This document shows positions 12,576 through 39,250 of a stretch of DNA of 64,000 nucleotides, piece by piece (the first letter of the stretch is position 1; each line of letters begins with the position of its first letter). The stretch covers positions 62,001-126,000 of the forward strand of contig JAFZUX010000009.1 of NCBI GenBank assembly GCA_017618115.1. Direction: 5' to 3'. Origin of the DNA: Bacteroidales bacterium. Lineage in GTDB: Bacteria > Bacteroidota > Bacteroidia > Bacteroidales > UBA932. The notes beneath the pieces were generated by a model. That model had not been told where the DNA came from. It saw only the letters and a list, made by a program, of their open reading frames with translations, and searched no databases. The translations under genes were made by a program, and so were the position numbers.

Positions 12576-14483
12576 TTAGATTACTGAAACTGCTTTGAAC
12601 TTACATCTGGACATGCACATACCGCACTTGATGCACTTTGAGAAGATAATTGCGTGAGGTTTTCTTGCAACACCCTCTATAGCTCCTGCAGGACAGCCGA
12701 TTGCGCAGGCGTGGCAGCCTATGCACTTCTCCGGATTTATCATATAGGTAAGCAATGCCTTACACTGTTTTGCGCGGCACTTTTTGTCTTTTACGTGCTC
12801 TACATATTCATCCCAGAAGTTGCTCAAGGTTGAGAGAACAGGGTTAGGGGAAGTTTGTCCCAAGCCGCAAAGTGCTGTGTCTTTGATTACTCCGGCAAGA
12901 GTCTTAAGTTTTTCCAAATCCTGCATGGTGCCGTCTCCGGCAATAATCTTATCCAGAATTTCCAACATTCTCTTGTTGCCGATTCTGCAAGGAGTACATT
13001 TTCCGCAAGACTCTCCAACTATAAAGTCCAGATAGAAACGGGCTACCGAAACCATACAGTTGTCTTCATCCATTACAATCATACCTCCGGAACCCATCAT
13101 ACTGCCTGCGGCTGTAAGTGTGTCAAAATCAATAGGGGTATCCAGATGTTTTTCCGTAAGGCAGCCTCCTGAAGGACCTCCGGTTTGAACGGCCTTAAAC
13201 TGCTTGCCGCCCTTGATGCCACCTCCGATATCAAAGATAACCTCTCTAAGTGTTGTTCCCATAGGCACTTCTATAAGACCAACGTTGTTAATTTTTCCTG
13301 CAAGGGCAAAGACTTTTGTACCCTTTGATCTGTCACTTCCTATTGAGGCAAACCAGTCCGCTCCCTTGTTGATTATAATAGGGACATTGGCAAATGTTTC
13401 AACGTTGTTTACGTTGGTAGGCTTGCCGTTATAACCGCTTTCTGCAGGGAACGGCGGCTTTAGGGTAGGTTCTCCTCTTCTTCCTTCCATTGAGTGAATT
13501 AGGGCGGTTTCCTCTCCGCATACGAAGGCTCCCGCACCGTATCTTATGTTAATATCAAACGAGAAGGATGTTCCAAGTATTTTCTTTCCCAAAAGTCCGA
13601 GTTCTCTTGCCTGCTTAATGGCAATCTTAAGTCTCTCAACTGCAAGAGGATACTCAGCTCTGATGTAAACCAGACCGTGAGATGCTCCAATTGCATATCC
13701 GCATATTGCCATAGCCTCAACAATGGAGTTAGGGTCACCCTCCATAATGGAGCGGTCCATAAATGCTCCCGGGTCTCCCTCATCTGCGTTGCAGACTACA
13801 TATTTCTCCTTTGACTGATTCTTTGCAGCAATCTCCCACTTCAATCCGGTTGGGAATCCTCCGCCGCCTCTTCCTCTGAGGCCGGACTTTTTGATTTCAT
13901 CAACTACGGCTTTAGGAGAGCGATTGAGAATACACTCTGCAAGAGCAAAGTATCCGTCTCTGCCTATATACTCCAAAATGTCCTCAGGATCAATGAGTCC
14001 GCAGTTTCTCAAAGCAATTCTCACCTGCTTGCGGTAGAAGTCCATGTGCTTTGAGTCGGATACGGTCATCTTGCGTTTTGGATCTACATACAAAAGCCTG
14101 TTAACTCTCTTTCCTCCAACGATATGCTCTATAAAGATCTCTTCTGCATCTTCCGGCTTTACCTTGGTGTAGAAAGTGTTGTCAGGTATAATTTTCACGA
14201 TAGGACCCTTTTCACAGAAGCCGAAGCAACCGGTGGTGATTACTTCCACCTTTCCCTCTAAGTTGTTGTCTGCTATCAGTTTCTTGAAATTTTCGGAGAT
14301 AAGATGGCTTTGAGAAGCCTTACATCCCGTACCTCCGCAGGTCAGAATCTGTATTTTTGGTGTTCCCTTCTTCAGACCGCAGCAAACGGAAGAATCCTGA
14401 TGGTCTCCCTGCTCCCTCGGTTTGAGATGAACACTCGCTTTTTCACGGATTTTTTTCAAATCCTCAATAGACGATATTTTCAT
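12576..14483 (-). CDS. hydB: Electron-bifurcating [FeFe] hydrogenase, NuoF-like subunit HydB
   Basis: 635 residues, first gene of hydBAC. Domains: N-terminal thioredoxin-like [2Fe-2S] domain (CGGTGC, then CFGFC, about residues 49-110), NuoF core with FMN loop RGRGGGGFPTG and NADH-site NADEGDPGAF, a SLBB domain, the [4Fe-4S] motif CGKCTPCRIG, and two C-terminal ferredoxin clusters (CIGCHACAIGC and CIKCGMCMSRC). It binds FMN and NADH and is the site proposed for electron bifurcation. The gap to hydA is 12 bases. A possible promoter lies about 37 bases upstream of its start. Confidence 0.96.
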   Translation of the reverse strand: MKISSIEDLKKIREKASVHLKPREQGDHQDSSVCCGLKKGTPKIQILTCGGTGCKASQSHLISENFKKLIADNNLEGKVEVITTGCFGFCEKGPIVKIIPDNTFYTKVKPEDAEEIFIEHIVGGKRVNRLLYVDPKRKMTVSDSKHMDFYRKQVRIALRNCGLIDPEDILEYIGRDGYFALAECILNRSPKAVVDEIKKSGLRGRGGGGFPTGLKWEIAAKNQSKEKYVVCNADEGDPGAFMDRSIMEGDPNSIVEAMAICGYAIGASHGLVYIRAEYPLAVERLKIAIKQARELGLLGKKILGTSFSFDINIRYGAGAFVCGEETALIHSMEGRRGEPTLKPPFPAESGYNGKPTNVNNVETFANVPIIINKGADWFASIGSDRSKGTKVFALAGKINNVGLIEVPMGTTLREVIFDIGGGIKGGKQFKAVQTGGPSGGCLTEKHLDTPIDFDTLTAAGSMMGSGGMIVMDEDNCMVSVARFYLDFIVGESCGKCTPCRIGNKRMLEILDKIIAGDGTMQDLEKLKTLAGVIKDTALCGLGQTSPNPVLSTLSNFWDEYVEHVKDKKCRAKQCKALLTYMINPEKCIGCHACAIGCPAGAIEGVARKPHAIIFSKCIKCGMCMSRCKFKAVSVI

Positions 14484-14763: not shown

Positions 14764-14979
14764 ATGAAAAAAGTATTATTTATCGCCGTTGCAGCTCTCG
14801 CATTCGTAGCTTGCAAGAACAATACTCCTGCTCAGGAGGTTGAGGCTGAGGTTGTTGACTCTACAGTTGTAGAGGTTGCTCCAGTTGACGTAGTTGACTC
14901 TGCTGCTGTTGCAGTTGAGAACGCTGCTACTGAGGTAGTTGAGGAAGTTAAAGAGGAAGTTAAAGAGGCTGTAAAGTAA
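14764..14979 (+). CDS. Small acidic Val/Glu-rich lipoprotein, function unknown
   Basis: 71 residues. A signal peptide (MKKVLFIAVAALAF) ends in a lipobox VAC, so Cys17 should be lipid-modified, leaving a mature protein of about 55 residues. The mature part has no aromatic residues and is built from Val, Ala, Glu and Asp, with a C-terminal EVKEEVKEAVK stretch whose DNA is a short tandem repeat (GAGGAAGTTAAA twice, near 14941-14964). It stands alone between divergent hydB and convergent DUF1573, with its own promoter and a strong terminator, which suggests high expression. I do not recognise the family; a structural envelope lipoprotein is one guess. Confidence 0.85.
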   Translation: MKKVLFIAVAALAFVACKNNTPAQEVEAEVVDSTVVEVAPVDVVDSAAVAVENAATEVVEEVKEEVKEAVK

Positions 14980-15001
14980 TTAACTGACTTACTGAAAATT
15001 A

Positions 15002-15033
15002 AGGGGACGGTTTTAAACCGCCCCCTTTTTTTA
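15002..15033 (+). terminator. Rho-independent terminator after the small lipoprotein gene
   Basis: GGGGACGGTTT pairs with AAACCGCCCC, with one bulged base, followed directly by eight T residues. It ends the small lipoprotein transcript and may also stop the convergent exopolysaccharide operon, whose last gene ends at 15056. Confidence 0.88.
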
Positions 15034-15055: not shown

Positions 15056-15580
15056 TTACTGGAAATCAGTGTAATAACCCAATCCGGTTTCAGATCCTAT
15101 ACCGTCTACAAAGTCTTTGACCTTAGGCCTGTTCTTTTCAAAGAGTTCCTCATAATCCCAGTGGTTGTTGCCGTCAGGAACTATATTTACGTCAAACTTC
15201 ATAATAGCCAATCCGTCCGGTGCCATATTGCCCCAAAAACGGACTGTATGGTTCACGCTTCCCTTGTTTTTGTTGCTGTCGTATACAACTATGACATACA
15301 TGTGTTTGCCGGGAGGAACGATTGTTTTTCCGGTAAAATCTGTAGTGATACAACCGCAGGAGGGCTGAACCTCGTTTACAATGAGAGGAACATCCCCGGT
15401 ATTCTCCACACGCAGAGCTATTCTCAGTTTCTGACCCTGGAGAATAGGGTAGTAGTGGCGGATGGAATCTCTAATTTGCACCGTTGTATAACCAACCTCG
15501 TTTTTACAGGATGTTGTAAAGAGAGAAAGGAGTGTTGCAGCGGCAATGAGTGATATATATAACGCTTTGTATATCTTCAT
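15056..15580 (-). CDS. DUF1573 lipoprotein, last gene of the exopolysaccharide-type operon
   Basis: 174 residues. Signal peptide with lipobox TSC (Cys25 approximately), then an Ig-like DUF1573 domain with the usual LRVENTGDVPLIVNEVQPSCGC core and PPGKHMYVIVVYD strand. DUF1573 proteins are common in Bacteroidota as exported, often surface-linked modules of unknown role. Here the gene starts one base after the stop of the DUF4838 lipoprotein, so it is almost certainly made with the polysaccharide machinery. The C-terminal 40 residues are acidic and aromatic and not part of the recognised domain. Confidence 0.8.
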   Translation of the reverse strand: MKIYKALYISLIAAATLLSLFTTSCKNEVGYTTVQIRDSIRHYYPILQGQKLRIALRVENTGDVPLIVNEVQPSCGCITTDFTGKTIVPPGKHMYVIVVYDSNKNKGSVNHTVRFWGNMAPDGLAIMKFDVNIVPDGNNHWDYEELFEKNRPKVKDFVDGIGSETGLGYYTDFQ

Positions 15581-15581
15581 T

Positions 15582-17810
15582 TTACTGGACTTTTCTAATT
15601 ATAATCTCATCCATAGTGAGAAATCTGGTTTTCTCTGAAGGATTGAAATGGAGTTCAATATCCTGCGCCCCCTTAAAATCTACTTTGCTTCTGAATACTA
15701 TAAGCTGGCCCTCATCAAAGAACTCGGAGAGCTGTTCCTGGTAAACTGTATTTTTAAGTTCTCCGTCTACAAAGATTTCTACAGACTTAGGAGGAGACAT
15801 CTTATGTCTTTCAAAATTGAGGAATCCCATTGCTATCTCATTGGCTTCCTGTACCTTCTCTGCAGGGATTTTTATTACAAGTTTCTCCTGGAAATAGAGA
15901 ATCCAGCCCCAGTGATAATTTTGTGAAACACCCAGAACTCCGTCTGTAAGTTTATCCTCTTCCGTCTCCCAACCGTGACTGTATAACTTAAGCGGAACTC
16001 CCAAAAGCATATTCTGACTCCAAACTCCCTTATTAACCCAAACGTCACATTCTCTCTGATAATCACCAAGATATACACCGGCCTCATTTACTCTGTCCAT
16101 GTGGTCCATTCTGGCGTTATCATTATTTGTAAGGTAATAGAGTTCGTTCTCCGAGGTAACGTCTTTAAGATTGCTTAACGCTTTTAAAAAGAGCGGATCT
16201 GCAGAGTATGAACCGTCTTCATTTTTCTTTGCAAAACTATATTTACCGTTAACACCTCCAAGACGGCAGAGCTCCATATATGTATATGAGTATATCTGTC
16301 TCAGTTTCTTGTAAATAGCAGCTTCACGAGGAGTCATTTCTATGTGTTCTGTCTCATTCTTAACGGAGAATTTGTAGAATTCAACAAAGTTATCCGGTCT
16401 TAAGTATGTTCTGGAAATCTCATCCATACCTCCGTACAAAGGAAGAGGCAGATGGCTGCTTTCCATGTGACGCTCAGCAGATTCCAGTGCTGCGTATGAC
16501 ATTTGGGCCAGGTGAGGAACTGCATCATACATATAATCATGCAGCAACCGGAGAGGATCAAGGTTGGGATTTATCATAAGCTGTGAAAGTACAAAGCAGT
16601 ACGACTCCTGCATAGATGCATAGAAGTATCCGCTTCCGTTAAGAAAGACACCTTTAACTCCTCTCTCTGCATACTGTTGGAGTCTGTCTTTCATAACCAT
16701 AAGGATAGGGAACGGGCTTAGATAATCGTCATAGTTGCAGATGTAATCCCATACATATATTTTGTTTGTAATACTCTTCCACTGCTCAATTTTGTTGAAG
16801 AAGTTTTGTGCAGCAGGACTCTCACTGTTCTGGTATGCTCTGGTGTAATCCATTGCTGCAAGCATAACTCCCACGTTAGCAGGCAGTTTGTGATCCGGAA
16901 TCTGAGCTGTTGTGGCATAACCTACCGTAAAGAAGGTGTGATTTGGAAAATCTGCCGCCAACCTCTCTATAAATCTTATAACCGTTGGAGTTGCATTGGT
17001 AGATGTATTTCCGGCGCTCTGACATTTTCTGCACGTACATACAAAACCGTTGTCATTAGGAGCAATCATAAACCTCTCCGGATGAATGACTCCGTCACCG
17101 TATTTGTCTTTTATATACTTGACTGTGAGTTCATAGAGTTTTTCTGAAGAGAAACAGAACTGACTCTGTTTGGTAATACCGTTTACCTGTGCAAAGAGCT
17201 CCTGATCCATATTGGCAGAGCCGTAATTCTTTTCTCCGTTACCGCCCAATACCTTGTTCATCTGGTGTCCCCAGAGTCCCCAGTCATTCTCAATATTATT
17301 GAGAGCCAATAAAATGGTAATATCCGGGTTCTGATTGGAAGGAGAATATACATCTCTGTACTCAAACGGGAAGGTTGCAGTTGTGTCTCCCTTAGGGAAT
17401 ATGCACGGAGGAAGATCCTTTACCTCTATTGCCTCATCATTTATTCCCTCTCTCTTCATAAACTGATAGATGAGCCAGATAGTTGTCTTCTCATCTCTTG
17501 CGATCATTCTGCAACTTTTTGGACGCTGCTCAACCTTGTAATCGTAACCAAAATCTCCGGTCTTTACAATTACTTCATAGCAGTCATCTGTCTTCACATT
17601 CGTAAGAAGATTACTTTTACACCTGCTCTGAAGATGTCTGCTAAGGTGAGAAGCCATCTTTACAGATAGCTGATCCTTAGGGTCTTCCGCGTGTATATAA
17701 TATATCTTCTCCGCCTTCTTGGCATTTTGATTGCCGTGACAGGAGACGAGAATAAGCAGGCAGCAAAACAGTCTTATCAGAAGTTTAGAAATAGATGACA
17801 AATTGAACAT
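15582..17810 (-). CDS. DUF4838-type lipoprotein, glycoside-hydrolase-like
   Basis: 742 residues. Signal peptide with lipobox VSC (Cys24) predicts an outer-membrane or periplasm-facing lipoprotein. The N-terminal 25-150 region resembles the alpha/beta domain that precedes catalytic barrels of alpha-glucuronidase-like enzymes; the middle carries the DUF4838 hallmark PNDNGFVCTCRKC and a likely TIM barrel; the last about 150 residues look like a beta-sandwich (VEIFVDGEL, FRSKVDFKGAQDIELHF). A carbohydrate-acting role is likely but the substrate is unknown. Its start lies 26 bases inside the end of the TPR/barrel gene, so the two are coupled. By position it could play the part PgaB plays in PNAG export. 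Confidence 0.75.
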   Translation of the reverse strand: MFNLSSISKLLIRLFCCLLILVSCHGNQNAKKAEKIYYIHAEDPKDQLSVKMASHLSRHLQSRCKSNLLTNVKTDDCYEVIVKTGDFGYDYKVEQRPKSCRMIARDEKTTIWLIYQFMKREGINDEAIEVKDLPPCIFPKGDTTATFPFEYRDVYSPSNQNPDITILLALNNIENDWGLWGHQMNKVLGGNGEKNYGSANMDQELFAQVNGITKQSQFCFSSEKLYELTVKYIKDKYGDGVIHPERFMIAPNDNGFVCTCRKCQSAGNTSTNATPTVIRFIERLAADFPNHTFFTVGYATTAQIPDHKLPANVGVMLAAMDYTRAYQNSESPAAQNFFNKIEQWKSITNKIYVWDYICNYDDYLSPFPILMVMKDRLQQYAERGVKGVFLNGSGYFYASMQESYCFVLSQLMINPNLDPLRLLHDYMYDAVPHLAQMSYAALESAERHMESSHLPLPLYGGMDEISRTYLRPDNFVEFYKFSVKNETEHIEMTPREAAIYKKLRQIYSYTYMELCRLGGVNGKYSFAKKNEDGSYSADPLFLKALSNLKDVTSENELYYLTNNDNARMDHMDRVNEAGVYLGDYQRECDVWVNKGVWSQNMLLGVPLKLYSHGWETEEDKLTDGVLGVSQNYHWGWILYFQEKLVIKIPAEKVQEANEIAMGFLNFERHKMSPPKSVEIFVDGELKNTVYQEQLSEFFDEGQLIVFRSKVDFKGAQDIELHFNPSEKTRFLTMDEIIIRKVQ

Positions 17811-20640
17811 GGCACATCAGTAAATTCTTGTAGTAAACATCTTCCTTATTGTAATATAACGTATTCCACGATGCGGAAACATTCACGGATAATCCGGGAA
17901 CAATCAGCCAGTTGGCACCCAGAGATACAAACGAGTTGAGGTGGTTGTAAATACCTGGAGCGTAGTAGAGGTCACTGAAGGTAAGTTCAGGTGCACTGCC
18001 CGCTCCGCACTGAGCCTCAATAAATGTCTTGCCGTCTTCATATATATAGTAACGGCCTCTGAGTAAGCCGGATCCGAATAACTTGCTGTGGAACGAACCT
18101 CCCGTAAGTTTTGTACCTGCCATAAAATGACCGCTTTGCCAGGTTGCAGCAAGGTTTACTCCGTACATCTGGGAGGTATCTGCCATACTGCGGAAGAGAG
18201 CACCTCCTCCAAAATCCCAGTTATCTGTTGCATGGTAGGTAAGGTCTACGTTAGCTGCAAACTTAGGGAAGTATTTGGTTCCGTATGAGAGGATTGCGTT
18301 ACCCGTCCAGCGGCTTCCCAGCTCTCTGGTGTAATCCACATCAAAACGGTATCCTCTTCCGCCGCTCTCCGGTTTGTTATCTTCGCTGGCCTCAAATCCG
18401 GCTCTTCCGGTGTAGTAAACCTTAACTCCCAGAGTGTTCTGTTTCCAGGATCTTGAATAACCGGCCTCTGCAATACCGTTCTTTACGTCACTGTCTGAGA
18501 ATCTCAGCCAATCATATCCTACCTCTATAGTGTTCTTATACCGCTTGTTAAGAAGGGTATTCATACGAGCAAGATATTCTTTCTCCTCCAATAGAGCAGG
18601 TCTGTATGCGCTCTGGAAAACGAATGCAGAATCCCAAATCTTCTGTTTTTCATAGATAATACCGCGGTCATATCTGAGTGAAGCGTTGGTAGGATTCTGT
18701 CTGAGTGCAGAGTCCAAAACTATGGCCGCTCTCTCGTAATCTCTCTGCTTCATAAGCTTAAGAGCCAGACGCTCAGATACATCTGCGTATGCACCCTTCA
18801 AAAGTGTATCTCCCGGATGATCCTTAAGAAGCGGTCTTAAAATTGAGAGTGCAGCGTTGTCTTCTCCTGCAAGAGAGAGTCTTGTGGCCTCTTTCTGCTG
18901 GAAGTATACGTCATTAGGATAAACGCTGTAAGCCTTTGCCATATAGAGTTCCGGAGTAGGGGAAGCTTGTATTGCATACCTTAAAGCCCAGTAATTATCC
19001 GGATCCAAAGAGAGCAGATTGTCACAGACGCGAAGTGCTTTAGGGGATGAGCCTTCCTGCATCAGAGATTTGATGTAAGGAATTGCTCTCTCCTCGTAAG
19101 CGGCTGTAAGAGCCTTTCTTGCGGTAGTATCTTTAGTTTTTAGGAACTCCCTGTAGATAAGGTCTAAAGACTCATCCAAACGCCCCTCCTTTGCAAGGAG
19201 GTTTGCGTAGTCTGAAGTAACAACCCACTCCGGCTCATAACGGAGTTTCTCCTTAAGAATTTCACGGGCCTTCTCAAACTCGTTCTTATTTATGTAACAG
19301 GTTGCAAGTCTGCGTACTGTGTTGGCCATCATCTCATCATCCACACAGTAGGAGTGAATCTTTTCCAGAATAGGAATTGCCTTGCCCCAGGCCTCTTCAT
19401 TCATATAATCTGCAGCCTCGCTCATTCTTGCCCTGTTGGCTGCAATGTTTATATCATACTCCTTAGGGTACTTAGCCTCAGCCATTTCCAAAGTCTTGGC
19501 CGCCATATCGGGGTGGTTGCTTCTCAGATAAACTTCATACTCCATCAGCCAGAGGTTAGGAGCATCTTTCCTTCTCTTTCTTGCCTCACTTATGTAATGG
19601 ATGCAGTCATCATAGTAATTCCTTCTGAATGACTCGCTTAAGAGGTAATCCAAAGCCTCGGAATTGTGAGATCTGTTGTATGCCCTAGTATAAAGATTGT
19701 AGGAATCTGCATCCTTTCTTATATAAGCGGAGGCCTCAACTATTCTGTCATAGAGAGCCTGAAGTTCCGGTGAAGGATTGATTCTCAACTGATCAGCAAG
19801 AAATGAGATGGCTCCCATATTGTTACCGATAACCATAAGCAGGTCTGTAAGTTTTTTGTTCAGATCTACGTTACCGGGGTTGTAGTTGATTGCACCAAAG
19901 AGTGCGTCTACGGCTTCTACAAATTGACCTCTCTCTATCAATATGTTGGCGTATGCAAGCTGGTAATCCGTCTCTCTGGGATTAATTTTCACCATATCTT
20001 TAAGTGTACTCTCCTCCTCGTCATAATCGTTATTGTTTTTTGCCTGAATATAAGCGCTCTCCAAAAGTTCATAGTGGCCGGCAACGAGTTGGGCGTCATT
20101 AGGGTAAATCTCCCTCAGTCTTTTAAGCAGAATGTTGGCTTCTTCGTAGTTTCCCAGTTTTTTGTAGAGGTCTATTTTTCTTACCCACAATCCTTTCCAG
20201 TAAGGGTTAACCTCCAAGAGCTCGTTAATGTAACAGATTGCACTTGAGTAGTTTCCGGTAGCCTCCTCCACATTAACAAGCATCTGCTTGGCATCTACGT
20301 GGTTATAATTGATGGAGACGCACTTAACAAGGTGGAATCTGGCTTTGTCCGGATTCTTTGCGTTCCACCAGAAGATACCTGCAAGATAGTGGAGGTTAGG
20401 ATCATGCGGCCACTTCTCCAGTGCATCGTCCAATACTTCCTTTCCTCTGTTCCATCTGTGCTGGGCAAAGAGTTGCTCAATCTGGTCTGCATACTGGCCA
20501 GGTGTCTTGAATTTAAACAGAGTCTCCTTTTGCCTCTCTGTGTTGTTTTGTTGTGCATAACAGTTTGATAGGGAGAATGTTGCCGCTCCCAGAACCACTA
20601 ACACAACCGTAACGGTATATCTTTTTAAGTAACTCATCAT
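17785..20640 (-). CDS. TPR protein with C-terminal YaiO-type outer-membrane barrel
   Basis: 951 residues. N-terminal signal peptide (cleavage near CYAQQ), then roughly 650 residues of tetratricopeptide-type helical repeats (for example HYLAGIFWWNAKNPDKARFH, NLLAKEGRLDESLDLIYREF), then from about residue 735 a beta barrel with alternating aromatic strands typical of the YaiO family (TIEVGYDWLRFSD, YFPKFAANVDLTYHATDNWDFGGG) ending in Phe. A TPR scaffold joined to an outer-membrane barrel is the design of PgaA and BcsC polysaccharide exporters. It lies four bases after the glycosyltransferase gene. The exporter role is inference from design and context. Confidence 0.82.
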   Translation of the reverse strand: MMSYLKRYTVTVVLVVLGAATFSLSNCYAQQNNTERQKETLFKFKTPGQYADQIEQLFAQHRWNRGKEVLDDALEKWPHDPNLHYLAGIFWWNAKNPDKARFHLVKCVSINYNHVDAKQMLVNVEEATGNYSSAICYINELLEVNPYWKGLWVRKIDLYKKLGNYEEANILLKRLREIYPNDAQLVAGHYELLESAYIQAKNNNDYDEEESTLKDMVKINPRETDYQLAYANILIERGQFVEAVDALFGAINYNPGNVDLNKKLTDLLMVIGNNMGAISFLADQLRINPSPELQALYDRIVEASAYIRKDADSYNLYTRAYNRSHNSEALDYLLSESFRRNYYDDCIHYISEARKRRKDAPNLWLMEYEVYLRSNHPDMAAKTLEMAEAKYPKEYDINIAANRARMSEAADYMNEEAWGKAIPILEKIHSYCVDDEMMANTVRRLATCYINKNEFEKAREILKEKLRYEPEWVVTSDYANLLAKEGRLDESLDLIYREFLKTKDTTARKALTAAYEERAIPYIKSLMQEGSSPKALRVCDNLLSLDPDNYWALRYAIQASPTPELYMAKAYSVYPNDVYFQQKEATRLSLAGEDNAALSILRPLLKDHPGDTLLKGAYADVSERLALKLMKQRDYERAAIVLDSALRQNPTNASLRYDRGIIYEKQKIWDSAFVFQSAYRPALLEEKEYLARMNTLLNKRYKNTIEVGYDWLRFSDSDVKNGIAEAGYSRSWKQNTLGVKVYYTGRAGFEASEDNKPESGGRGYRFDVDYTRELGSRWTGNAILSYGTKYFPKFAANVDLTYHATDNWDFGGGALFRSMADTSQMYGVNLAATWQSGHFMAGTKLTGGSFHSKLFGSGLLRGRYYIYEDGKTFIEAQCGAGSAPELTFSDLYYAPGIYNHLNSFVSLGANWLIVPGLSVNVSASWNTLYYNKEDVYYKNLLMCHVQFVIYF

Positions 20641-20643
20641 CTG

Positions 20644-22071
20644 CTATTGTGAAGTCTTTACACCCTTTCTTGTCATTGCTCCCCAAACCATCTTCTTACC
20701 TGTTATGTGTTTGAGATATCCTCTCAAAGCAAAATAGACGATAATAGGGTGATATATAAACGGTTCCAGAGTTGAAGCCAAAATAAACCAGAGGTAATTT
20801 GATTTCTTTTCAAAGGAACCCTTAAACTTCATATCAAAGTTGATTACCAACATTGTGAGCACCTGTGCAAAGGCAAACAACGTGAAGAAAATCAGGAACA
20901 TAGTCTCCCAGTTAAGGCTTCCGCTCAACATAAGGTAGAGAATGAAGAGATAACCGGACAACTCTATAACAGGTGCGGAGAGCTCGAATATCATCACATA
21001 CGGAAGAGAAATCATACCGTAGGTATGATACCTCCTCTTAAAGAGCATATCTCTGTGAATGGTAAAGAACTGGAACAAACCACGTCCCCATCTCATTCTC
21101 TGACGGGCCAGGACCTTAAGGGTTGGAGGTCCCTCCGTCCAGCAGCATATATCCGGAATCTGAACAATTCTGTACGGCTCACCGCTATCGCACATATATC
21201 GTATCATTCTGGCAATCATATCCATATCCTCCGCAAAGGAGTCTCCGTCATATCCTCCCGCCTTAATAGCAACGTCTGTATCAAACAGACCGAAACCTCC
21301 GGATACGTTAATCATACCGTTGATTGCCGCAAATGCAGATTTACCAATAAGATAGGATCTTGCATACTCCAAATCCTGGAAGAGAGGAATTAGGGAGTGA
21401 GGCGGAAGCACCTTCTCCATCTGACCCTCTTTAACTATGCAACCATTCAACATACGCATGGATGCACTCACGGCAATCACTCTTGTCTGAGACTGCATCA
21501 AAGGCCAGATACAGCGGTAAAGGGCGAATTTCTCAATAACGCAGTCCACATCCGTACAAATAAAGTATTTGTTGGATACCACATTGATACCTGCGTTTGA
21601 AGCATCCGCCTTTGTACCACCGTTCTCTTTATCAACCACTTTCAGCTTTTTGAAGAGAGGGTTGTCACTCTTGGTGGCATAGACGCATCTGAACGGTTTG
21701 GTCTTAATCTTCTCAATGTATGCGTATGGAACCTTTACAAGGTCAAAGTGCTCAATAAGCAGTTCCAGGGTTTTGTCCTTTGAACCGTCGTTCACAATAA
21801 CCACCTCAAAATCAGGGTAGTCCAAATTAAGTAGAGACTGAACGTTTGTAATGATAGTCTTCTCCTCGTTATATGCAGGTGCAACTATGGAGATACCGGG
21901 AGTGTAAGGAGAGTCTCTCAGAATCTCTATGGTATATTCCGGATCGTGGAAGATTTTACGCTTCTTATGTCTTTTAAATGAGAACCGTATCATTATGAGA
22001 TAACTCAAGATGATACCGCCCGAATAGAACAGTATGAAGTAATCAAAGAATGTTGATATGGCGTTATGCAT
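20644..22071 (-). CDS. Processive family 2 glycosyltransferase, membrane-bound polysaccharide synthase
   Basis: 475 residues. One membrane helix at the N terminus (about residues 5-28), a cytoplasmic GT2 domain with the full processive set: VNDGSKD (first Asp), TDVDC (DxD), AEDMD (acceptor-site Asp) and QRMRW (QxxRW), then three membrane helices towards the C terminus. This is the layout of PgaC, hyaluronan and cellulose synthases, which polymerise and move the chain across the inner membrane. The sugar cannot be read from sequence. There is no PilZ domain. Overlaps the HEAT protein gene by 8 bases and precedes the TPR/barrel gene by 3. Confidence 0.88.
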   Translation of the reverse strand: MHNAISTFFDYFILFYSGGIILSYLIMIRFSFKRHKKRKIFHDPEYTIEILRDSPYTPGISIVAPAYNEEKTIITNVQSLLNLDYPDFEVVIVNDGSKDKTLELLIEHFDLVKVPYAYIEKIKTKPFRCVYATKSDNPLFKKLKVVDKENGGTKADASNAGINVVSNKYFICTDVDCVIEKFALYRCIWPLMQSQTRVIAVSASMRMLNGCIVKEGQMEKVLPPHSLIPLFQDLEYARSYLIGKSAFAAINGMINVSGGFGLFDTDVAIKAGGYDGDSFAEDMDMIARMIRYMCDSGEPYRIVQIPDICCWTEGPPTLKVLARQRMRWGRGLFQFFTIHRDMLFKRRYHTYGMISLPYVMIFELSAPVIELSGYLFILYLMLSGSLNWETMFLIFFTLFAFAQVLTMLVINFDMKFKGSFEKKSNYLWFILASTLEPFIYHPIIVYFALRGYLKHITGKKMVWGAMTRKGVKTSQ

Positions 22072-23263
22072 ATTTTCTACTGTCTATATATTCACACTCT
22101 ACGTGGTCAAAGAATCTGATGTCATCCTCTTTAGCCTCTTTTTTAAGTAACTCATACGCAGCCTTTCCTGCAGCTCCGTAATCGTACAGATTTCTTAGCA
22201 ACCTAACTTTGGTGGCAGCTCTGGTAGTCTCCTTAAAGTCCTTTACTAAGAAATCTATCACCTCAGGGTTGCCGGATTTGATATTTCCCAAAGCCTCTGC
22301 AATGACCCCTCTCTCCGCCGCAGCTGCATAGTTATAACGGCGCAGCAGTTCAGGCTCCGCCTTTTTGTATCTTAGTTCTCCCAAGCACTTGATTATGGCC
22401 AGAGAGAATATCTCATCCTTGCTATCTTTAAGCAAATCCAAAAGTTCCGGGCAGTCCTTCTTGCTCTGAAGGAGTCTGATTTCGTTCACTGCAAAGAGTC
22501 TAAGCTTCTCATTTATAGGATAAAGGTTACACCAACGCACAAGGTTCGGAATAGATAGATTGTTCTTCAGTCTGTAGACGAACACATTATGCAGTTTAAC
22601 CATAAGCTCTTCAGAGACATAACCTTTGGTATCCTCAGTAAAGATTTTGAAAGGGTAGGAGGTACCGTAACGGGCCACGTGAAGACGGGAACTCATTCTA
22701 AGTTTCTCATCTCTTGCGTATAGGTATCTTGATGCCACCGCCTCTTTAAGGTCCGTGTTATCATCCGTAATGTTTTTAAGAGCGGCAAGACGCTTCTTAA
22801 GAACTCTGGATTGCATCTGTTTCTCAAAGTAGGTAGGCATTCTCAAGGCTATGGTGAGGTTTCTCCAGTTACTTCTGTTAAAATTCTCATCATCCTCAAT
22901 CTTATGGTAGAGATCTCTAAGAATAGGAACGAACAGAGAGGTCTTCTTAACGTTCATCTTATAGTTTACAGGAAGTTCAATTGCCTGGGCTATCTCGTTA
23001 GGATCCATCTTGTTAGGGGAGAGTGCAACCTTCTCCATCTTATCCTCATAGAGTTCCGTATAGTGTTTCTGCTTACGGTTGTGGCGTGCCTCCTTAACCG
23101 CCCTTATATAGTTTTTTAGCAGTGAAATAAGAATGTAAATTACTGCTATATTGAGGAATAGAGAACACATACGTACTACAGGCGGATAATCTATCCACGT
23201 GTAGTATATACCCATGATGTAATACTTAATGTATTCTAGTGCCGTCAAACTGTAATACTCCAT
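22064..23263 (-). CDS. Membrane-anchored HEAT-repeat protein, first gene of the exopolysaccharide-type operon
   Basis: 399 residues. A single transmembrane helix near residues 30-50 (LFLNIAVIYILISLL), a basic juxtamembrane segment, and a mostly helical body; from about residue 230 there are HEAT-like repeats (LAIIKCLGELRYKKAEPELLRRY, GVIAEALGNIKSGN). HEAT arrays are protein-binding scaffolds. Because its stop overlaps the start of the polysaccharide synthase by 8 bases, the protein probably binds or regulates that synthase, in the way PgaD or a PilZ partner does elsewhere. That role is inference; I do not know a characterised relative. Confidence 0.78.
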   Translation of the reverse strand: MEYYSLTALEYIKYYIMGIYYTWIDYPPVVRMCSLFLNIAVIYILISLLKNYIRAVKEARHNRKQKHYTELYEDKMEKVALSPNKMDPNEIAQAIELPVNYKMNVKKTSLFVPILRDLYHKIEDDENFNRSNWRNLTIALRMPTYFEKQMQSRVLKKRLAALKNITDDNTDLKEAVASRYLYARDEKLRMSSRLHVARYGTSYPFKIFTEDTKGYVSEELMVKLHNVFVYRLKNNLSIPNLVRWCNLYPINEKLRLFAVNEIRLLQSKKDCPELLDLLKDSKDEIFSLAIIKCLGELRYKKAEPELLRRYNYAAAAERGVIAEALGNIKSGNPEVIDFLVKDFKETTRAATKVRLLRNLYDYGAAGKAAYELLKKEAKEDDIRFFDHVECEYIDSRKYA

Positions 23264-23287
23264 TCCTACTGGCCTATAATAAGCAAG

Positions 23288-23319
23288 CCAAGATAATAAA
23301 AACGGCGCGAAAATACAAA
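23288..23319 (-). promoter_or_regulatory. Promoter of the exopolysaccharide-type operon
   Basis: On the - strand a TTTG (23316-23319) lies exactly 20 bases upstream of TATCTTGG (23288-23295), which differs from TAnnTTTG at one position. The leader would be about 17 bases before the ATG at 23263. The 133-base gap to the preceding co-directional gene supports an independent promoter here. Confidence 0.5.
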
Positions 23320-23396
23320 TCTTTACCTTATATAAAAAGGGAAGAAGTACTTTTATTTCAATTTGTTACCGATTTGTTTCAGGTTTTGAAACCCTC

Positions 23397-24689
23397 TTAT
23401 TTCCCAAACAGGGCGGAAACCCTCTCTACAACCTCTGCAGAGCTGCTTTCCGGTGACATTACCAAATCCGGCTTTGTACTTACAAATTTGAACTCTCTCT
23501 TAAAACGCTGCTCGCCTCCTCCCGTTAAATTGAGCATTATTGTCTGCTCGGGTGAGACCTGGTTCTCTTTTAGAGCCTTAATCAGACTCACGATGGTTAC
23601 ACCTGCAGCAGGGTGGATATCTATTCCCTCCAGCTCTTCAAACATATCGCACGCCTCCGTAAGTTCTCCGTTGGTTGCCTTCTGGAACTCTCCGTTGGTT
23701 GCAACCAGAGCGTCAAAGAGACCTCCCGGAACGGAATAAGGCGGTTTGCGGTTGGAAAGAACGCTGGCCTTAATCATAAGCGCCCTTCTTCTGCCATCCT
23801 CCTCATCAAATTGAGGGAGTGCACGGCTGCGCATCATCCAGGCGTCATACATAGGGGTGAAAGGTACGTTCTGTGAAGGGATGAGTTTCATAATCTTATC
23901 TCCGAACCTTCCGTCTGCCTTAAGACGCAGGTTGGATTCGTAGGCCGCAATAGTTCCGGTTCCGCTTCCCACAGCCTGGAAATAGGCGTCCGGAATCTCT
24001 CCAATTACCTGTGCAGCAGAGAGTACCGTGGTTGCCATTCCGTCTCTTCTGGCCACGTTCTTTGCACCGCCCTCCTCCATAAAGAGTTCAGATGCGTTCA
24101 GTTTTGCGGCAAGGGCAATGGCGTCAAAGTAGTCGCTTCCCTTTGGAGGGCAGATAACTTTTACGCAATCGTTTAGAGGCTCCTTAAACCAGAGAGCACC
24201 CATATTATCCTCAGGGATAGCAATTACCAGAGGAATGTTGTTATCCGAGCAGACCTGTGCAAAAGCACGGGCGGTGTTGCCCGCAGATGCCACCACCAGA
24301 ATCCTGTTGTTTTTCTCCGGCAGACGTCCGCATACGGAGTAGGCCTCGGTCTCCTTGAAAGAGCAGGTTCTCATCTTGGCTCCAATCTCCGGCCACCAAC
24401 CGCTGAAGGTGATATAGAGATTCTTCAGATTGAGTTTCTCCGCCAACTTTTTGCTCTTATAAGTAATTGGAGCACAGGAGTTTTTAAGCATCCTGCCTAT
24501 AGGCATCCAATCTGCAAACTTATATATTCCGTAGGAGTCGTCCTTAAACTCAATCTGCTTTTTCTCATAAATGGCTCTGATGAGGGAATTTCTGGAATCC
24601 TCAGGATCTGCCATAAGCCAACCGGTATCTTCAAACTCTCTGCCGCTCAGGCAGTTCTGTAATTTGTACGCTGTGGGTTTAATTTCCAT
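23397..24689 (-). CDS. Probable cysteate synthase (threonine-synthase-like PLP enzyme)
   Basis: 430 residues of the fold-type II PLP family. The PLP lysine should be the one in TCSFKETEA, where threonine synthases have SFKDRG, and the phosphate-binding and cofactor loops (ASAGNTARAF, GSGTGT) are intact. The N-terminal FEDTGWLM...LIRAIYEKKQ and the SGWWPEIGAKMRTCSFKE region match my memory of cysteate synthase, which makes L-cysteate from O-phosphoserine and sulfite and feeds sulfonolipid synthesis in several Bacteroidota. A divergent threonine synthase is the alternative. I use ATG 24689, 4 bases after the upstream stop; a longer frame to 24731 would overlap that gene. Confidence 0.68.
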   Translation of the reverse strand: MEIKPTAYKLQNCLSGREFEDTGWLMADPEDSRNSLIRAIYEKKQIEFKDDSYGIYKFADWMPIGRMLKNSCAPITYKSKKLAEKLNLKNLYITFSGWWPEIGAKMRTCSFKETEAYSVCGRLPEKNNRILVVASAGNTARAFAQVCSDNNIPLVIAIPEDNMGALWFKEPLNDCVKVICPPKGSDYFDAIALAAKLNASELFMEEGGAKNVARRDGMATTVLSAAQVIGEIPDAYFQAVGSGTGTIAAYESNLRLKADGRFGDKIMKLIPSQNVPFTPMYDAWMMRSRALPQFDEEDGRRRALMIKASVLSNRKPPYSVPGGLFDALVATNGEFQKATNGELTEACDMFEELEGIDIHPAAGVTIVSLIKALKENQVSPEQTIMLNLTGGGEQRFKREFKFVSTKPDLVMSPESSSAEVVERVSALFGK

Positions 24690-24693
24690 ATCA

Positions 24694-26583
24694 TTAATTA
24701 CTTTTAATATTTTCACATACAACCTCTGCAAAATCTTTTACAGGGATAGGGGATTTCTCTCTGAAACTCCTGTAACAGAGAGGACAGGCGGTAACAATGC
24801 TTTGCGGATTTTCAGCCGTAAGGTTGTTGATTGAACTCTCCGCAATCTTTCCGCGGTCTTTGTTATCTAAAGTGAGGGAGCCCAAACTTCCGCCGCAGCA
24901 GATACTCTCGTCTCTCTCCTTTTCCGCCTTCTTTAGTTCCCCGATAGATCTCAGCACATTACGCGGCTCCTCATATACTCCGCACCCTCTGCCCAGTTCG
25001 CACGGATCGTGATAAACCATTGAACTGCTGCCTTTTGAAACCTTCAGCTCTCCTTTCTCTATAAGCTCGTTCAGATACTGTGTATAGTGGAGGACTCTTA
25101 TACCCTTAAGGTCATAATCATCCTTGAATACCTTGTAACATATAGGGCAGGAGAGCAGCAGAATCTTGCATCCGCTCTCCATTATCATCTTCTTATTCTT
25201 GGAAATCAGCTCTTTGGCAGCCTCGGTACGTCCGGCCAAAAGCATAGGACGGCCGCAGCAGATACCGCCCTCCCTGTCTGCAAAGATGAACTTCTTTCCG
25301 GCACTCTCCAAAACTGAAGTAACGCTCTTTATAATTTTTGGAGTAAGGTGAGACATACACCCTGCAAAGTACATAATCTCAGCACTTTCTTCACTGTTCT
25401 CCTTAAGGCGGAAGTTATCCATAGGGGTGAAGTCAAATGAGAGTTTATGGTTGAGGGTCTCCCTCTGGGCGCGTCTTATATCGGGAGAATTTACTCCCAC
25501 AGGGCAGAGCGCATAGCACTTGCCGCACATCAGGCACTTATCTGCTATCTCATTGATTTTCTTTTCATTGTGCCTTCTTAAAAATCTTATGAAATATACG
25601 GATGAGTACTTTAGATTCTTCTTTTGAGTGTTCATTGGGCAGGCATCCAGACAGAGTCCGCAACTTGAGCAGGCGTAAATCTCCGCCTCTGCAAAACCTT
25701 TTCTCGGTTTGCGTACTTTTAATCCGGCATTGCGCATTACAATGAGCAGCGGCTCCGTGAGAATGTGCATATAGCGGCTGAACGGCATTGCCAAGAAGAA
25801 GAGTCCCAGGCAGATAGAGTAGAGCCACCAGGTTGGAAGGAAGTTGAGTTCGTTTCCAAAGAAGTTCCTAAAGAGCATGTTGAGCGGTTTTGTAAGGAAG
25901 CTTCCGCCGCTGAGGTCTGCTGTAAATCCCTCAGCCAGAAGACGTAATGGGAATATAGCCCAGAGGCAGTAGAGTGCCACGCGGTCTGCAAGGGAAGGTT
26001 TGGTGGTGTGCCTCATTCCCAGTGCAATAGAGCGCACTCTCTTGTACATTGCCAGTGCAATACCGCTTAGTACATAGAGGAGGAAGAAATCCATCAGGAA
26101 GAAGAAGAGACTGCCTCTTAGTGTCTCGTGCTCAGGAGACATCCAGATAAAGAAGCGGTAGAAGATAGGGTAGTAGAGGGCTCCGTCCGCAACGGAATCC
26201 AAATGGCGCGGTGCAAAGAGAGCAACCTCAATGTGGCCTAGAACTATAAGCATAAACCAACCGAACGCTATTGCGGAGTGCATATAGCCAAGCAGCGGTT
26301 TACGTTTCCATATCTTGGTGTGTAACAGGCAGTCACAGAAGATATCCTTTATGTTTTTAAGGGCCGTCTTAGGTGTGAAGAGGGAGATGAAAAGCCTCTT
26401 GCGATCCTCTGCGGTAAGATGGTAGAGTATTCTTATGAGACCTATCAGAAGATAGACCATAATGAAACTGATACCTATTACAAACGGCAGTACAAAGTGG
26501 TTGTAACTGTTAGGATATCTGTCAATTATACCCTCAGGGGTAATCTGACTGTAAGTATATAGTGTCTGAAGAAGTGCCGTCAT
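24694..26583 (-). CDS. Membrane Hdr-like subunit: cytochrome-b-like domain fused to HdrD-like Fe-S domain
   Basis: 629 residues. The N-terminal 290 residues hold about six hydrophobic helices with histidines placed as in HdrE/NarI-type cytochrome b (GYMHSAIAFGWF, RYMHIL). Then come two [4Fe-4S] sites (CSSCGLCLDAC, CLMCGKCYALC) and two complete CCG domains (FAGC...ICCGRP...CPIC and DPCELG...ICCGGS...CPLC), the non-cubane cluster fold of HdrD. Such fusions exchange electrons between a soluble module and membrane quinone. It overlaps the preceding HdrC-like gene by four bases (ATGA). Partner identity and direction of electron flow are not visible in sequence. Confidence 0.82.
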   Translation of the reverse strand: MTALLQTLYTYSQITPEGIIDRYPNSYNHFVLPFVIGISFIMVYLLIGLIRILYHLTAEDRKRLFISLFTPKTALKNIKDIFCDCLLHTKIWKRKPLLGYMHSAIAFGWFMLIVLGHIEVALFAPRHLDSVADGALYYPIFYRFFIWMSPEHETLRGSLFFFLMDFFLLYVLSGIALAMYKRVRSIALGMRHTTKPSLADRVALYCLWAIFPLRLLAEGFTADLSGGSFLTKPLNMLFRNFFGNELNFLPTWWLYSICLGLFFLAMPFSRYMHILTEPLLIVMRNAGLKVRKPRKGFAEAEIYACSSCGLCLDACPMNTQKKNLKYSSVYFIRFLRRHNEKKINEIADKCLMCGKCYALCPVGVNSPDIRRAQRETLNHKLSFDFTPMDNFRLKENSEESAEIMYFAGCMSHLTPKIIKSVTSVLESAGKKFIFADREGGICCGRPMLLAGRTEAAKELISKNKKMIMESGCKILLLSCPICYKVFKDDYDLKGIRVLHYTQYLNELIEKGELKVSKGSSSMVYHDPCELGRGCGVYEEPRNVLRSIGELKKAEKERDESICCGGSLGSLTLDNKDRGKIAESSINNLTAENPQSIVTACPLCYRSFREKSPIPVKDFAEVVCENIKSN

Positions 26584-37517: not shown

Positions 37518-38033
37518 TTACTCTTTTTTCTTAGTATCAATGTAATAAAGGAGTCTGGACTTATTATATGTGTATGTCTCATCTAATGATATCTTAAGAT
37601 AATCTTCTACAGTCTTCTTCCTTAGACAGACCAGATGATCTGATAATGATAGTTTTTTTGTGTTATTCAAGAAGATAGTGAAAGACTCTTTTGATTTTAA
37701 GAATTTAACAACGTAAGGGAAAGTATAATTATCTGTAATAAAGCCTTCAAAATTCATTCCCTCAGAAATGAAATCGAATAAAGAGAAGTCTCCAACTCTT
37801 GTGAAAAAGGCTCTTCTGATAACACTCTCAGGTCCATTATTATTTAAAGGATCTCTTGATACGAATATGACAATGTCTTCAGAATCCGTATTGGATATAT
37901 TAACTTTCAAGAAACTGTTCTTAAACGCAATAAAAGAAGATGTATCTATCTTTGTTTCAACAGGATCCTGTCCGTATAAGATAGAATTTAGCGTAACGCT
38001 AAGAAGTAGTGCTATTAACAGTCCTCTTTTCAT
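37518..38033 (-). CDS. Exported protein of unknown function, paralogue of 39251-40156
   Basis: 171 residues with a cleavable signal peptide (cleavage near LYGQ). I do not recognise the family. The mature part is clearly homologous to the C-terminal half of the lipoprotein at 39251-40156: shared order of motifs SKDPLNNNG-like (here SRDPLNNNGPES), FFTRVGDFSLF, FITDNYTFPYVVKFL, ESFTIFL and SRLLYYID at the end. Base composition is more AT-rich than neighbouring metabolic genes. Preceded by a promoter in a repeated segment, and followed after 5 bases by lysO. Confidence 0.72.
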   Translation of the reverse strand: MKRGLLIALLLSVTLNSILYGQDPVETKIDTSSFIAFKNSFLKVNISNTDSEDIVIFVSRDPLNNNGPESVIRRAFFTRVGDFSLFDFISEGMNFEGFITDNYTFPYVVKFLKSKESFTIFLNNTKKLSLSDHLVCLRKKTVEDYLKISLDETYTYNKSRLLYYIDTKKKE

Positions 38034-38048
38034 AAGTTATCTCTTCCC

Positions 38049-38085
38049 TCAAAGGTAATGTTTTTATTAAAAAGAGAGGCAACTC
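38049..38085 (-). repeat. Repeat copy C with promoter for 37518-38033
   Basis: This 37-base segment matches repeat copy B at 40356-40393 with only a few changes (both contain AATGTTTTTATT). On the - strand it carries TACCTTTG (38050-38057), a perfect Bacteroidota -7 box, about 17 bases before the ATG at 38033. From 38086 to 38146 I see no gene. Confidence 0.65.
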
Positions 38086-38146
38086 CTCAACTGCATGAAG
38101 AACGGGGGAGGGCACAATTTTCGGTACCGTTACACTGCTGATAGGA

Positions 38147-38650
38147 TTAATTACCCAACAATATGGAATAATCTTTTAGATTGATAACCCGAAATTTATT
38201 ATTAGAGCTGTAATAACCAAATACTTCAATAGAATCCCCGTCAAATAATGTTGTTTTATATTGTTTCTTAAAACTATCCAAATTAAACTCTAAATGACTT
38301 TTTTTACTAAAACGATCTTCTAAAACAATCTTTTCGTTTTTTTTGAAATAAACATAAATGTCCTCCGAATCGATGAAAGCAAGTTGATTATATGTATCCT
38401 CACTGCTTTCTCTGCCGATAATATCATTTAAACCAGAAAGTGGTATTACTGAATTAAAAAGATACATAGTATCGTATTCAATGTTTAAAACATCAGATAA
38501 GTTAATTATACATGTATCACTTTTACTGAATAGATGATTATTGTTTATAAAGGCATCTATTTTATCTGGAATTGATTTATGACATGAAGAAATCAAGCAA
38601 AGACATAAAAGCGATAATATACTCTTACCGAGACAATTTATTAAGACCAT
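38147..38650 (-). CDS. Small lipoprotein of unknown function
   Basis: 167 residues. Signal peptide MVLINCLGKSILSLLCLCLI ends in lipobox SSC, so lipidation is expected. The mature protein has alternating charged and beta-strand-like stretches (DTCIINLSDVLNIEYDTMYLF, EDIYVYFKKNEKIVLED) like many small, strain-variable Bacteroidota lipoproteins; it could be an immunity-type protein, but nothing proves this. ATG 38650 is used; a GTG two codons upstream is in frame. Starts 31 bases after the stop of 38681-39172 and is probably co-transcribed with it. AT-rich. Confidence 0.7.
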   Translation of the reverse strand: MVLINCLGKSILSLLCLCLISSCHKSIPDKIDAFINNNHLFSKSDTCIINLSDVLNIEYDTMYLFNSVIPLSGLNDIIGRESSEDTYNQLAFIDSEDIYVYFKKNEKIVLEDRFSKKSHLEFNLDSFKKQYKTTLFDGDSIEVFGYYSSNNKFRVINLKDYSILLGN

Positions 38651-38680
38651 TTTCACCTTTTTAAGAAATATTAAAGAAGT

Positions 38681-39172
38681 CTATTCATTTTTGATGATTA
38701 ATATTGAATTCTGCTTCTCAAAAAGATCTATTCTTATTAATTGGTTGTTTTTGTATCTCCTTCTGAGATCCCAAAAATCATCTTGTTTTATTACGAAATT
38801 GGTGTATTTAGTTTTTGGTGCAGTTATTTGTTGTTGCATTGTTGGAATAATTAAAACGATCTTTTTCTGACTATAGTCTAAGAACAATTCTGTTTCACCG
38901 TTAATGATATAATCTGTCTCTGGATTTGCCAAACTATCTCGGTAAGGTGATATTACGATTTCTTCGTGATTGCCAGCTATTAATCCCCATGCCCTAAATT
39001 TAATATAAAGAACTTCTTTCTGAGTTCCTTCAACTATTTCAAGCTTAATAGTTTGTGTTACTGGTTCTCCCCACCCGGTACATATATAGTTGACTATTAA
39101 AATTAAACCCAATGTTATGCTTAATAGCGTTAAAAAGCTGATTACACATATTATGATAGTCTTTTTTGTCAT
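38681..39172 (-). CDS. Membrane-anchored protein of unknown function
   Basis: 163 residues. One N-terminal membrane helix (residues 5-30, IIICVISFLTLLSITLGLIL) without a clear cleavage site, then a soluble domain rich in beta strands (EVLYIKFRAWGLIAGNHEEIVIS, GETELFLDYSQKKIVLII). The FRAWG...GNHEEIVIS pattern is something I associate with a recurring family of uncharacterised Bacteroidota proteins, but I cannot name it. Its promoter lies in repeat copy A, about 48 bases upstream. AT-rich relative to the flanking genes. Confidence 0.7.
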   Translation of the reverse strand: MTKKTIIICVISFLTLLSITLGLILIVNYICTGWGEPVTQTIKLEIVEGTQKEVLYIKFRAWGLIAGNHEEIVISPYRDSLANPETDYIINGETELFLDYSQKKIVLIIPTMQQQITAPKTKYTNFVIKQDDFWDLRRRYKNNQLIRIDLFEKQNSILIIKNE

Positions 39173-39180
39173 AGCCTAAT

Positions 39181-39230
39181 TGTCCCCATCCCATTTTTAA
39201 ACAGTTAATAAGCTAACGCCAAAGTTAATG
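39181..39230 (-). repeat. Repeat copy A with promoter for 38681-39172
   Basis: About 50 bases that match copy B (40317-40367) with one single-base gap and about four substitutions; both begin TGTCCCCATC on the + strand and share CAGTTAATAAG. On the - strand the segment carries TAACTTTG (39220-39227), a perfect -7 box, giving a leader of roughly 40 bases before the ATG at 39172. Confidence 0.7.
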
Positions 39231-39250
39231 ATTTGTTTAAATATGCTTTG

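Follow-up and report, generated by a model that had tools for sequence, protein, structure and literature searches.

We analysed a 64,000-nucleotide stretch (the window) of contig JAFZUX010000009.1 from a Bacteroidales genome assembly (GCA_017618115.1), in which a first-pass annotation had described five minus-strand genes as an exopolysaccharide synthesis and export machine. In transcription order, these genes encode a HEAT-repeat protein, a processive family-2 glycosyltransferase (GT2), a tetratricopeptide-repeat (TPR) scaffold that ends in an outer-membrane barrel, and two lipoproteins with DUF4838 and DUF1573 domains. HEAT constantly accompanies an entire GT2 subfamily, whose members extend to haloarchaea and Gram-positive bacteria. 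As a synthase arrangement, the HEAT-GT2 pair recurs in bacteria and archaea alike, and the window operon is its Bacteroidia variant with a periplasmic module of its own. The operon is real and conserved, and the general role first proposed for it appears sensible as far as function can be read from sequence: the five genes probably form a synthase-dependent exopolysaccharide system that makes a putative polymer without the use of cyclic di-GMP (c-di-GMP). The genes are as follows.

22064-23263, minus strand: gene 1, HEAT-repeat protein, 399 aa (Pfam HEAT_2, 47 bits, above cut-off)
20644-22071, minus strand: gene 2, processive GT2, 475 aa (Pfam Glycos_transf_2, 71 bits, above cut-off)
17785-20640, minus strand: gene 3, TPR-barrel exporter, 951 aa (Pfam TPR, and YaiO at 36.7 bits with a cut-off of 23.9)
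15582-17810, minus strand: gene 4, DUF4838 lipoprotein, 742 aa (Pfam DUF4838, 144 bits, above cut-off)
15056-15580, minus strand: gene 5, DUF1573 lipoprotein, 174 aa (Pfam DUF1573, 55 bits, above cut-off)

Genes 1 and 2 overlap by 8 bases (22064-22071) and genes 3 and 4 by 26 bases (17785-17810); genes 2 and 3 are separated by 3 bases (20641-20643) and genes 4 and 5 by a single base (15581). These distances are exactly those first described, and the gene order and domains were recovered as well. The outer end of the block had been placed at 23319, which is not a start codon in the frame of gene 1; its ATG is at 23263.

Linkage of the HEAT protein to the synthase

We searched for relatives of the GT2 in 99 genomes of the family (5 with a match at E < 1e-100, the window's own included) and in 295 of the order (36 with one at E 1e-40). 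At the latter threshold, 38 of 40 places outside the window's genome were fetched (G013:C133 and G223:C50 were left out), and the neighbourhoods of 48 GT2 loci were read. Three groups emerged from a GT2 tree. Clade A (12 loci, support 100/100) has HEAT, GT2 and a long TPR-barrel gene, with DUF4838 and DUF1573 behind them; in clade B (28 loci, branch 94/90), a shorter YaiO-type gene accompanies HEAT and GT2 in most cases; and clade C (7 loci) lacks HEAT and combines GT2 with a YaiO-type gene, a polysaccharide deacetylase and, as a rule, a 606-aa-type protein. In clades A and B, HEAT was directly upstream of the GT2 wherever this could be assessed (38 of 38 loci; 12/12 and 26/26 with upstream sequence), and in clade C at none of the six loci with upstream sequence. 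This count leaves out two clade B loci that start at contig ends, and it includes L088, where a split GT2 was bridged by looking one gene further upstream. The GT2 frame is in two pieces both there (genome G182) and in a Devosia record (L204), by decay or sequencing error.

A Bacteroides finegoldii locus (L193, NZ_OY725906, genes UHF62_RS03425 to RS03445) falls inside clade A in a 35-row tree, which gives 13 clade A-type loci. The full five-gene order is kept at nine of these (the window, L006, L082, L086, L089, L090, L157, L158 and L193), three are cut by contig ends (L008, L081 and L088, the last with a DUF4838 piece behind the exporter), and one is rearranged (L087, with DUF4838 and DUF1573 upstream in the opposite direction). 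The window, L006 and L008 are near-copies. The order is kept even in relatives with DUF4838 proteins just 24-48% identical to that of the window, which makes it more than chance. The first-pass annotation had proposed this search, naming an order not conserved in relatives as the result that would speak against it; the order proved to be conserved.

To see how far the linkage extends beyond these genomes, we can turn to named plasmid records, of which a protein search returned 30, 14 at >=29% identity (that is, at least 29%) and 16 at 27.2% or less; one of the 30 was typed as conjugative and four as mobilizable. Twelve of the closer 14 were read (two further Mesorhizobium ciceri records were left out), and all 12 have HEAT directly upstream, ten by annotation and those of Emticicia and Paenibacillus by profile. 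They come from Bacteroides, Emticicia, Mesorhizobium, Erythrobacter, Devosia, Legionella adelaidensis, Deinococcus, Paenibacillus, Planococcus and three haloarchaea. No HEAT was found in the four records read of the more distant 16 (by record annotation; for L203 also by profile). Since haloarchaea and Gram-positives are without a Gram-negative-type outer membrane, it is the synthase, and not the exporter, that HEAT accompanies. The idea that HEAT is a local swap for PgaD or PilZ control thus had to be corrected. In the 35-row GT2 tree, HEAT linkage requires a single label change (grouping branch 78/40, 80% of bootstrap trees). The window HEAT protein has one predicted transmembrane (TM) segment near its N-terminus (about 29-50, by hydropathy), in agreement with its first description as a one-helix protein, and the HEAT domain is predicted to be cytosolic because positive charges come after this segment. 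A strongly hydrophobic N-terminal segment is present in 10 of 11 named HEAT proteins, the exception being an annotated Halosolutus protein.

Neither the HEAT-GT2 pair nor this operon appeared in titles or abstract beginnings among the matches listed from the open-licence PMC literature, which does not show absence from print. In the portions available, the main text of PMC7112194 does not contain Bacteroid, HEAT or YaiO, PMC10434189 discusses other loci, and PMC12419801 names HEAT repeats solely for beta-catenin and does not contain YaiO or DUF4838.

Searches of the window's genome (89% complete) found no GGDEF and no PilZ domain, and none is present in the five proteins; given this completeness, the absence is strong but not final. 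It agrees with the initial statement that no c-di-GMP-binding domain is encoded. The same searches were positive in 8 (GGDEF) and 5 (PilZ) of 14 control genomes, with one control, Bacteroides ihuae, in neither list. To our knowledge, c-di-GMP enzymes are widely lacking in Bacteroidales. The c-di-GMP-binding co-component that is listed as part of synthase-dependent systems (PMC7112194, in the part available) was thus not found in the five proteins or the genome as assembled. In clade B, 19 of 28 loci have a receiver-domain gene upstream of the GT2, on the same strand and within five genes, and 18 of these 19 genes encode 118-165 aa; receiver genes were also upstream in 7 of the 12 named records, including all three from haloarchaea (the Paenibacillus record has no gene table). 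No receiver gene in the same orientation was seen near any of the 12 loci of clade A, of which L008, L082, L088 and L158 hold less than 1 kb of upstream sequence. The receiver gene in most clade B loci suggests how such systems are regulated, and that clade A lost this input.

HEAT might also be a pure assembly scaffold that serves GT2 stability or placement, and neither gate nor receiver. This explanation, which competes with one step of the mechanism proposed below, is unlikely but deserves to be taken seriously: HEAT remains at the 12 clade A loci where no receiver gene was seen (four of them with the short upstream sequence just mentioned), yet the upstream receivers of clade B and the named records suggest that a signal is read nearby. 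Returning to HEAT as a regulatory partner of the GT2, we tentatively propose, with less confidence than for the role of the operon itself, that HEAT-GT2 may be a separate, unnamed polysaccharide synthase class over bacteria and archaea. In this class a membrane-tethered HEAT solenoid, with a single CheY-type receiver reading it, would stand in for the c-di-GMP modules (PilZ, PgaD) of the known synthases, outer-membrane bacteria would add a YaiO-type exporter, and the window clade would have swapped the receiver for a DUF4838-DUF1573 module.

Synthase, exporter and lipoproteins compared with known systems

The GT2 has a predicted TM segment near residues 12-30 plus C-terminal TM segments (by hydropathy), and it carries the motifs of the processive membrane GT2s of synthase-dependent exopolysaccharide systems (D, DxD, ED and QxxRW). 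These had been recognized at the outset and are nearly invariant among relatives: all 25 HEAT-linked rows share D95, D174, D176, D282, Q324, R327 and W328, and E281, W463 and R468 are kept in 24 (QxxRW is at 324-328, WxxxxR at 463-468). An additional T in GGTKADA, close to the DxD motif, was present in 8/8 clade A rows and 0/21 other rows, and WTEGP is likewise peculiar to clade A; both suggest a substrate or linkage of their own for these enzymes.

The exporter has a probable signal peptide. Its structure model contains 37 helices at 47-700, or about 18 TPRs, followed by a 14-stranded barrel at 703-950 that ends in F, so that it combines the outer-membrane barrel and the alpha-helical repeat scaffold of synthase-dependent systems.

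Of the two lipoproteins, the DUF4838 protein (lipobox Cys 24) consists of a GH67N/GH20b-like N-terminal domain, a TIM-like domain and a C-terminal discoidin (F5/8) domain, and its model has the overall fold of the GH84/GH115/GH20-like superfamily. A search of PDB sequences with a 7-row DUF4838 profile gave nothing at E 0.1, and a 24-row profile gave matches. The DUF1573 protein (lipobox Cys 25) is Ig-like, of the ASH/HYDIN type. An acidic run after the lipobox Cys is the surface-export signal on lipoproteins, and no such run is present in the window lipoproteins. This weakly suggests that they face the periplasm. GH84, GH115, GH20 and GH67 proteins share with DUF4838 the N-terminal alpha/beta domain, the TIM-like barrel and, in some, a discoidin domain, at about 10% identity.

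Among known systems, we considered Pga (E. coli pgaABCD) in most detail. It shares with the window the GT2 nearest by sequence, a TPR-barrel exporter and a periplasmic hydrolase-type lipoprotein; in the accessible parts of the respective papers, PgaA-PgaB is given a scaffold role (PMC9384988) and PgaB is classified as GH153 (PMC5933820). The window differs in having HEAT instead of PgaD, 14 barrel strands (model), the DUF4838 fold family, an additional DUF1573 protein, no GGDEF or PilZ found in the genome, and no deacetylase domain in the five proteins, the only part of the genome scanned for one (Pfam). Neither the five proteins nor their profiles matched E. coli PgaD. PgaB comes with a deacetylase domain, and the proposal that DUF4838 replaces PgaB can therefore be kept for the hydrolase half only: a lipoprotein with a hydrolase-like predicted fold stands in PgaB's place.

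These likenesses raise the question of whether the operon is a divergent form of Pga, with beta-1,6-GlcNAc as its polymer and HEAT as a divergent substitute for PgaD. In its favour, PgaC_IcaA is the nearest NCBIfam model of the window GT2 and the best model in all seven HEAT-linked GT2s scanned, the GT2 profile finds PgaC first in E. coli (90 bits; YaiP 34, BcsA 21), the DUF4838 model is near hexosaminidase-type folds, and one haloarchaeal HEAT-GT2 pair adjoins glmS and a sugar-nucleotide transferase gene. The PgaC_IcaA scores are, however, far below the cut-off of 422.3 bits (110.6 for the window GT2, 86-146 across the seven, or a fifth to about a third of it), neither a deacetylase domain nor a PgaD-like protein is among the five, the modelled barrel has 14 strands, and the extra T of clade A hints at a product of its own. 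We consider this possibility improbable.

Other systems are further away. Bcs cellulose operons also combine a GT2 and a TPR-barrel exporter with a periplasmic hydrolase (in the window, a protein with a hydrolase-like predicted fold), but they have a BcsA-type synthase with PilZ, and BcsB; in the window no PilZ was found, BcsB is not among the five proteins, and the GT2 profile gives BcsA just the 21 bits mentioned above. The E. coli yaiO/yaiP/yaiS stretch has the YaiO outer-membrane protein near a GT2 and also a deacetylase, but no HEAT and no annotated TPR fusion. In the NfrA/NfrB phage N4 receptor glycan system, a glycosyltransferase and an outer-membrane protein likewise share one operon, but NfrB is annotated as c-di-GMP-activated and missed by the GT2 profile, and NfrA is found by the TPR part of the window exporter only.

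Two further explanations have very little probability. The GT2 could make a short lipid- or protein-linked glycan unrelated to the role of the TPR-barrel protein, in line with PDB sequence matches of its profile that are confined to the GT-A core of assorted enzymes, but QxxRW is invariant and the C-terminal WxxxxR nearly so, and the TPR-barrel gene is directly behind the GT2 at 12/12 clade A loci, with a YaiO-type gene within five genes at 20/28 clade B and 7/7 clade C loci. Alternatively, DUF4838 and DUF1573 could be a glycan-scavenging pair captured beside an unrelated synthase, as DUF4838 proteins in general are widespread (a match at E 1e-10 in 62 of 295 order genomes) and mostly far from this GT2; against this, the operon-type DUF4838 forms a group of its own, which in the genomes searched occurs nowhere except near this GT2 clade; in the window its gene shares 26 bases with that of the exporter, and even at L087, where the pair is inverted, it has not left the vicinity of the synthase. 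At E 1e-90, 395 phylum genomes yielded the operon type in the window's own genome, G059, G391 and G744, the last two from another taxonomic order and both with the full five-gene order.

Operon borders, gain or loss, and neighbouring genes

The operon is bordered by two features:

15001-15027, minus strand: intrinsic terminator-like hairpin, 29 bases past the end of gene 5, 12 pairs, 7 of them G-C
23264-23396, minus strand: 133-base interval separating gene 1 from the PLP-enzyme gene upstream, probably with the promoter

With the hairpin at one end and the 133-base gap at the other, the five genes look like a closed unit. The core of the hairpin (15001-15027) scores on the plus strand as well, and a small convergent ORF on that strand (14764-14979), lipoprotein-like, acidic and alanine/valine-rich, ends at this common hairpin. 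A sigma-70 scan gave zero sites in the 5' gap, and fewer sites in the region than in shuffles; promoters of Bacteroidota differ from the sigma-70 type, and the scan is therefore not informative. No Rfam family reached its gathering score within 8000-30000, which speaks for no known riboswitch or RNA control there. The flanking genes are PLP-enzyme-like (23397-24731) and hydrogenase-type (12576-14483), both named by eye from translations.

The PLP-enzyme-like gene was present in 20 of 21 genus genomes searched (own included), and 19 congener regions of 4.5-16.7 kb each were compared with the five proteins by tblastn. The proteins were found in one region (L174, the same locus as L006), and the other 18 gave no match above 80 bits. 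In L175 and L176, the PLP and hydrogenase genes stand in the same order, 1030 and 1047 bases apart, with the operon absent and with the small lipoprotein ORF in the intergenic gap, as in the window. Seven same-genus genomes have no close GT2, one of them (G297) with a distant 1147-aa GT2 of another kind. The five-gene block is thus gained or lost as a unit. Composition (GC3 of 0.43-0.50 in the five genes and 0.46-0.55 in seven flanking genes) was not decisive as to a foreign origin, and we do not claim horizontal gain from it.

Several neighbours were seen at other loci. DUF4842 proteins, possibly accessory secreted proteins, adjoin the operon in B. finegoldii (L193:6114-7430) and G375 (L081:3044-4555), and a 695-aa protein behind the operon in L082 has a similar start (by eye). 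The B. finegoldii locus is on a 112-kb 'plasmid 4', which may be a chromosomal piece because it encodes dapB, signal peptidase and tRNA-dihydrouridine synthase. Among clade B loci, a GH16-like protein behind the GT2 (L094, L107) or a sulfatase/LTA-synthase-type membrane protein near it (L084, L095, L101, L103, L105, L111, L194) hints at different products or decorations. In L. adelaidensis (L205), genes for a nucleotide-sugar dehydrogenase and an epimerase flank YaiO-HEAT-GT2 and could point to the donor sugar of that GT2 branch. Clade C amounts to a second unnamed Bacteroidales exopolysaccharide-type operon, with a deacetylase of about 1050 aa at L117-L120 and L159-L161 (PF01522 in L119; others by profile). 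Elsewhere in the window, a low-GC stretch on the minus strand (37518-40156; 0.31 in 38001-40000) has small ORFs of secreted or lipoprotein-like type, and by eye those of 171 and 301 aa seem to be duplicates of each other.

Proposed mechanism and its meaning

Some observations weigh against the reading of the operon as a synthase-dependent exopolysaccharide system. The branch that unites all HEAT-linked GT2s is weakly supported (78/40), and the HEAT proteins vary widely in sequence: among the 11 named partners, L198, L200 and L202 match the HEAT profile at just E 0.002-0.04, and their identity rests on record names. In clade B, no YaiO was found within five genes at 8 of 28 loci, some of which lie at contig ends. 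The exporter profile misses E. coli YaiO altogether, and the chains of PgaA and BcsC, whose barrels have 16 strands as compared with the modelled 14, are not among the structural matches listed for the exporter. Whole-chain TM-scores of the DUF4838 model with PDB chains are low (0.27-0.40 by query length). In GH84 and GH20, an adjacent pair of acids at the end of strand 4 is the catalytic pair; after strand 246-248 (DSSP), the window protein has an invariant D253 followed by N254, so that the second acid is not evident and substrate-assisted hydrolysis is doubtful. The DUF4838 protein could, judging from these residues, only bind.

For a synthase-dependent system, we propose the following mechanism. 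The GT2 would polymerise a sugar nucleotide in the cytosol, as its motifs suggest, and extrude the chain via its own TM helices. The membrane-tethered, cytosol-facing HEAT protein, given its constant linkage, would be an obligate partner that holds or gates the GT2. In related systems a nearby-encoded CheY-like receiver probably feeds a signal; it is missing from the clade A operon, where control is likely transcriptional or via another input. The TPR solenoid, from its predicted fold, would lead the chain across the periplasm and into the 14-stranded barrel. Probably at the outer membrane and facing the periplasm, the DUF4838 lipoprotein would bind the chain by its discoidin domain and may trim or edit it like the hydrolase half of PgaB. 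DUF1573, judging from its linkage, probably serves as a small adaptor holding DUF4838 to the TPR or barrel part. The initial description as a complete secretion line thus stands for a self-contained synthase-plus-exporter line of conserved order; HEAT is linked to the synthase, not to the envelope line as such.

How Bacteroidales could run synthase-type exopolysaccharide lines without c-di-GMP enzymes is the question that this operon addresses. Its presence in a rumen-type gut bacterium and in a named strain of B. finegoldii, a human gut species, makes it a concrete c-di-GMP-free candidate exopolysaccharide line, with HEAT as a conserved candidate regulator. If HEAT-GT2 is indeed a general class, many genes now called 'glycosyltransferase' or 'HEAT repeat domain-containing protein' in bacteria and haloarchaea would gain a common testable function.

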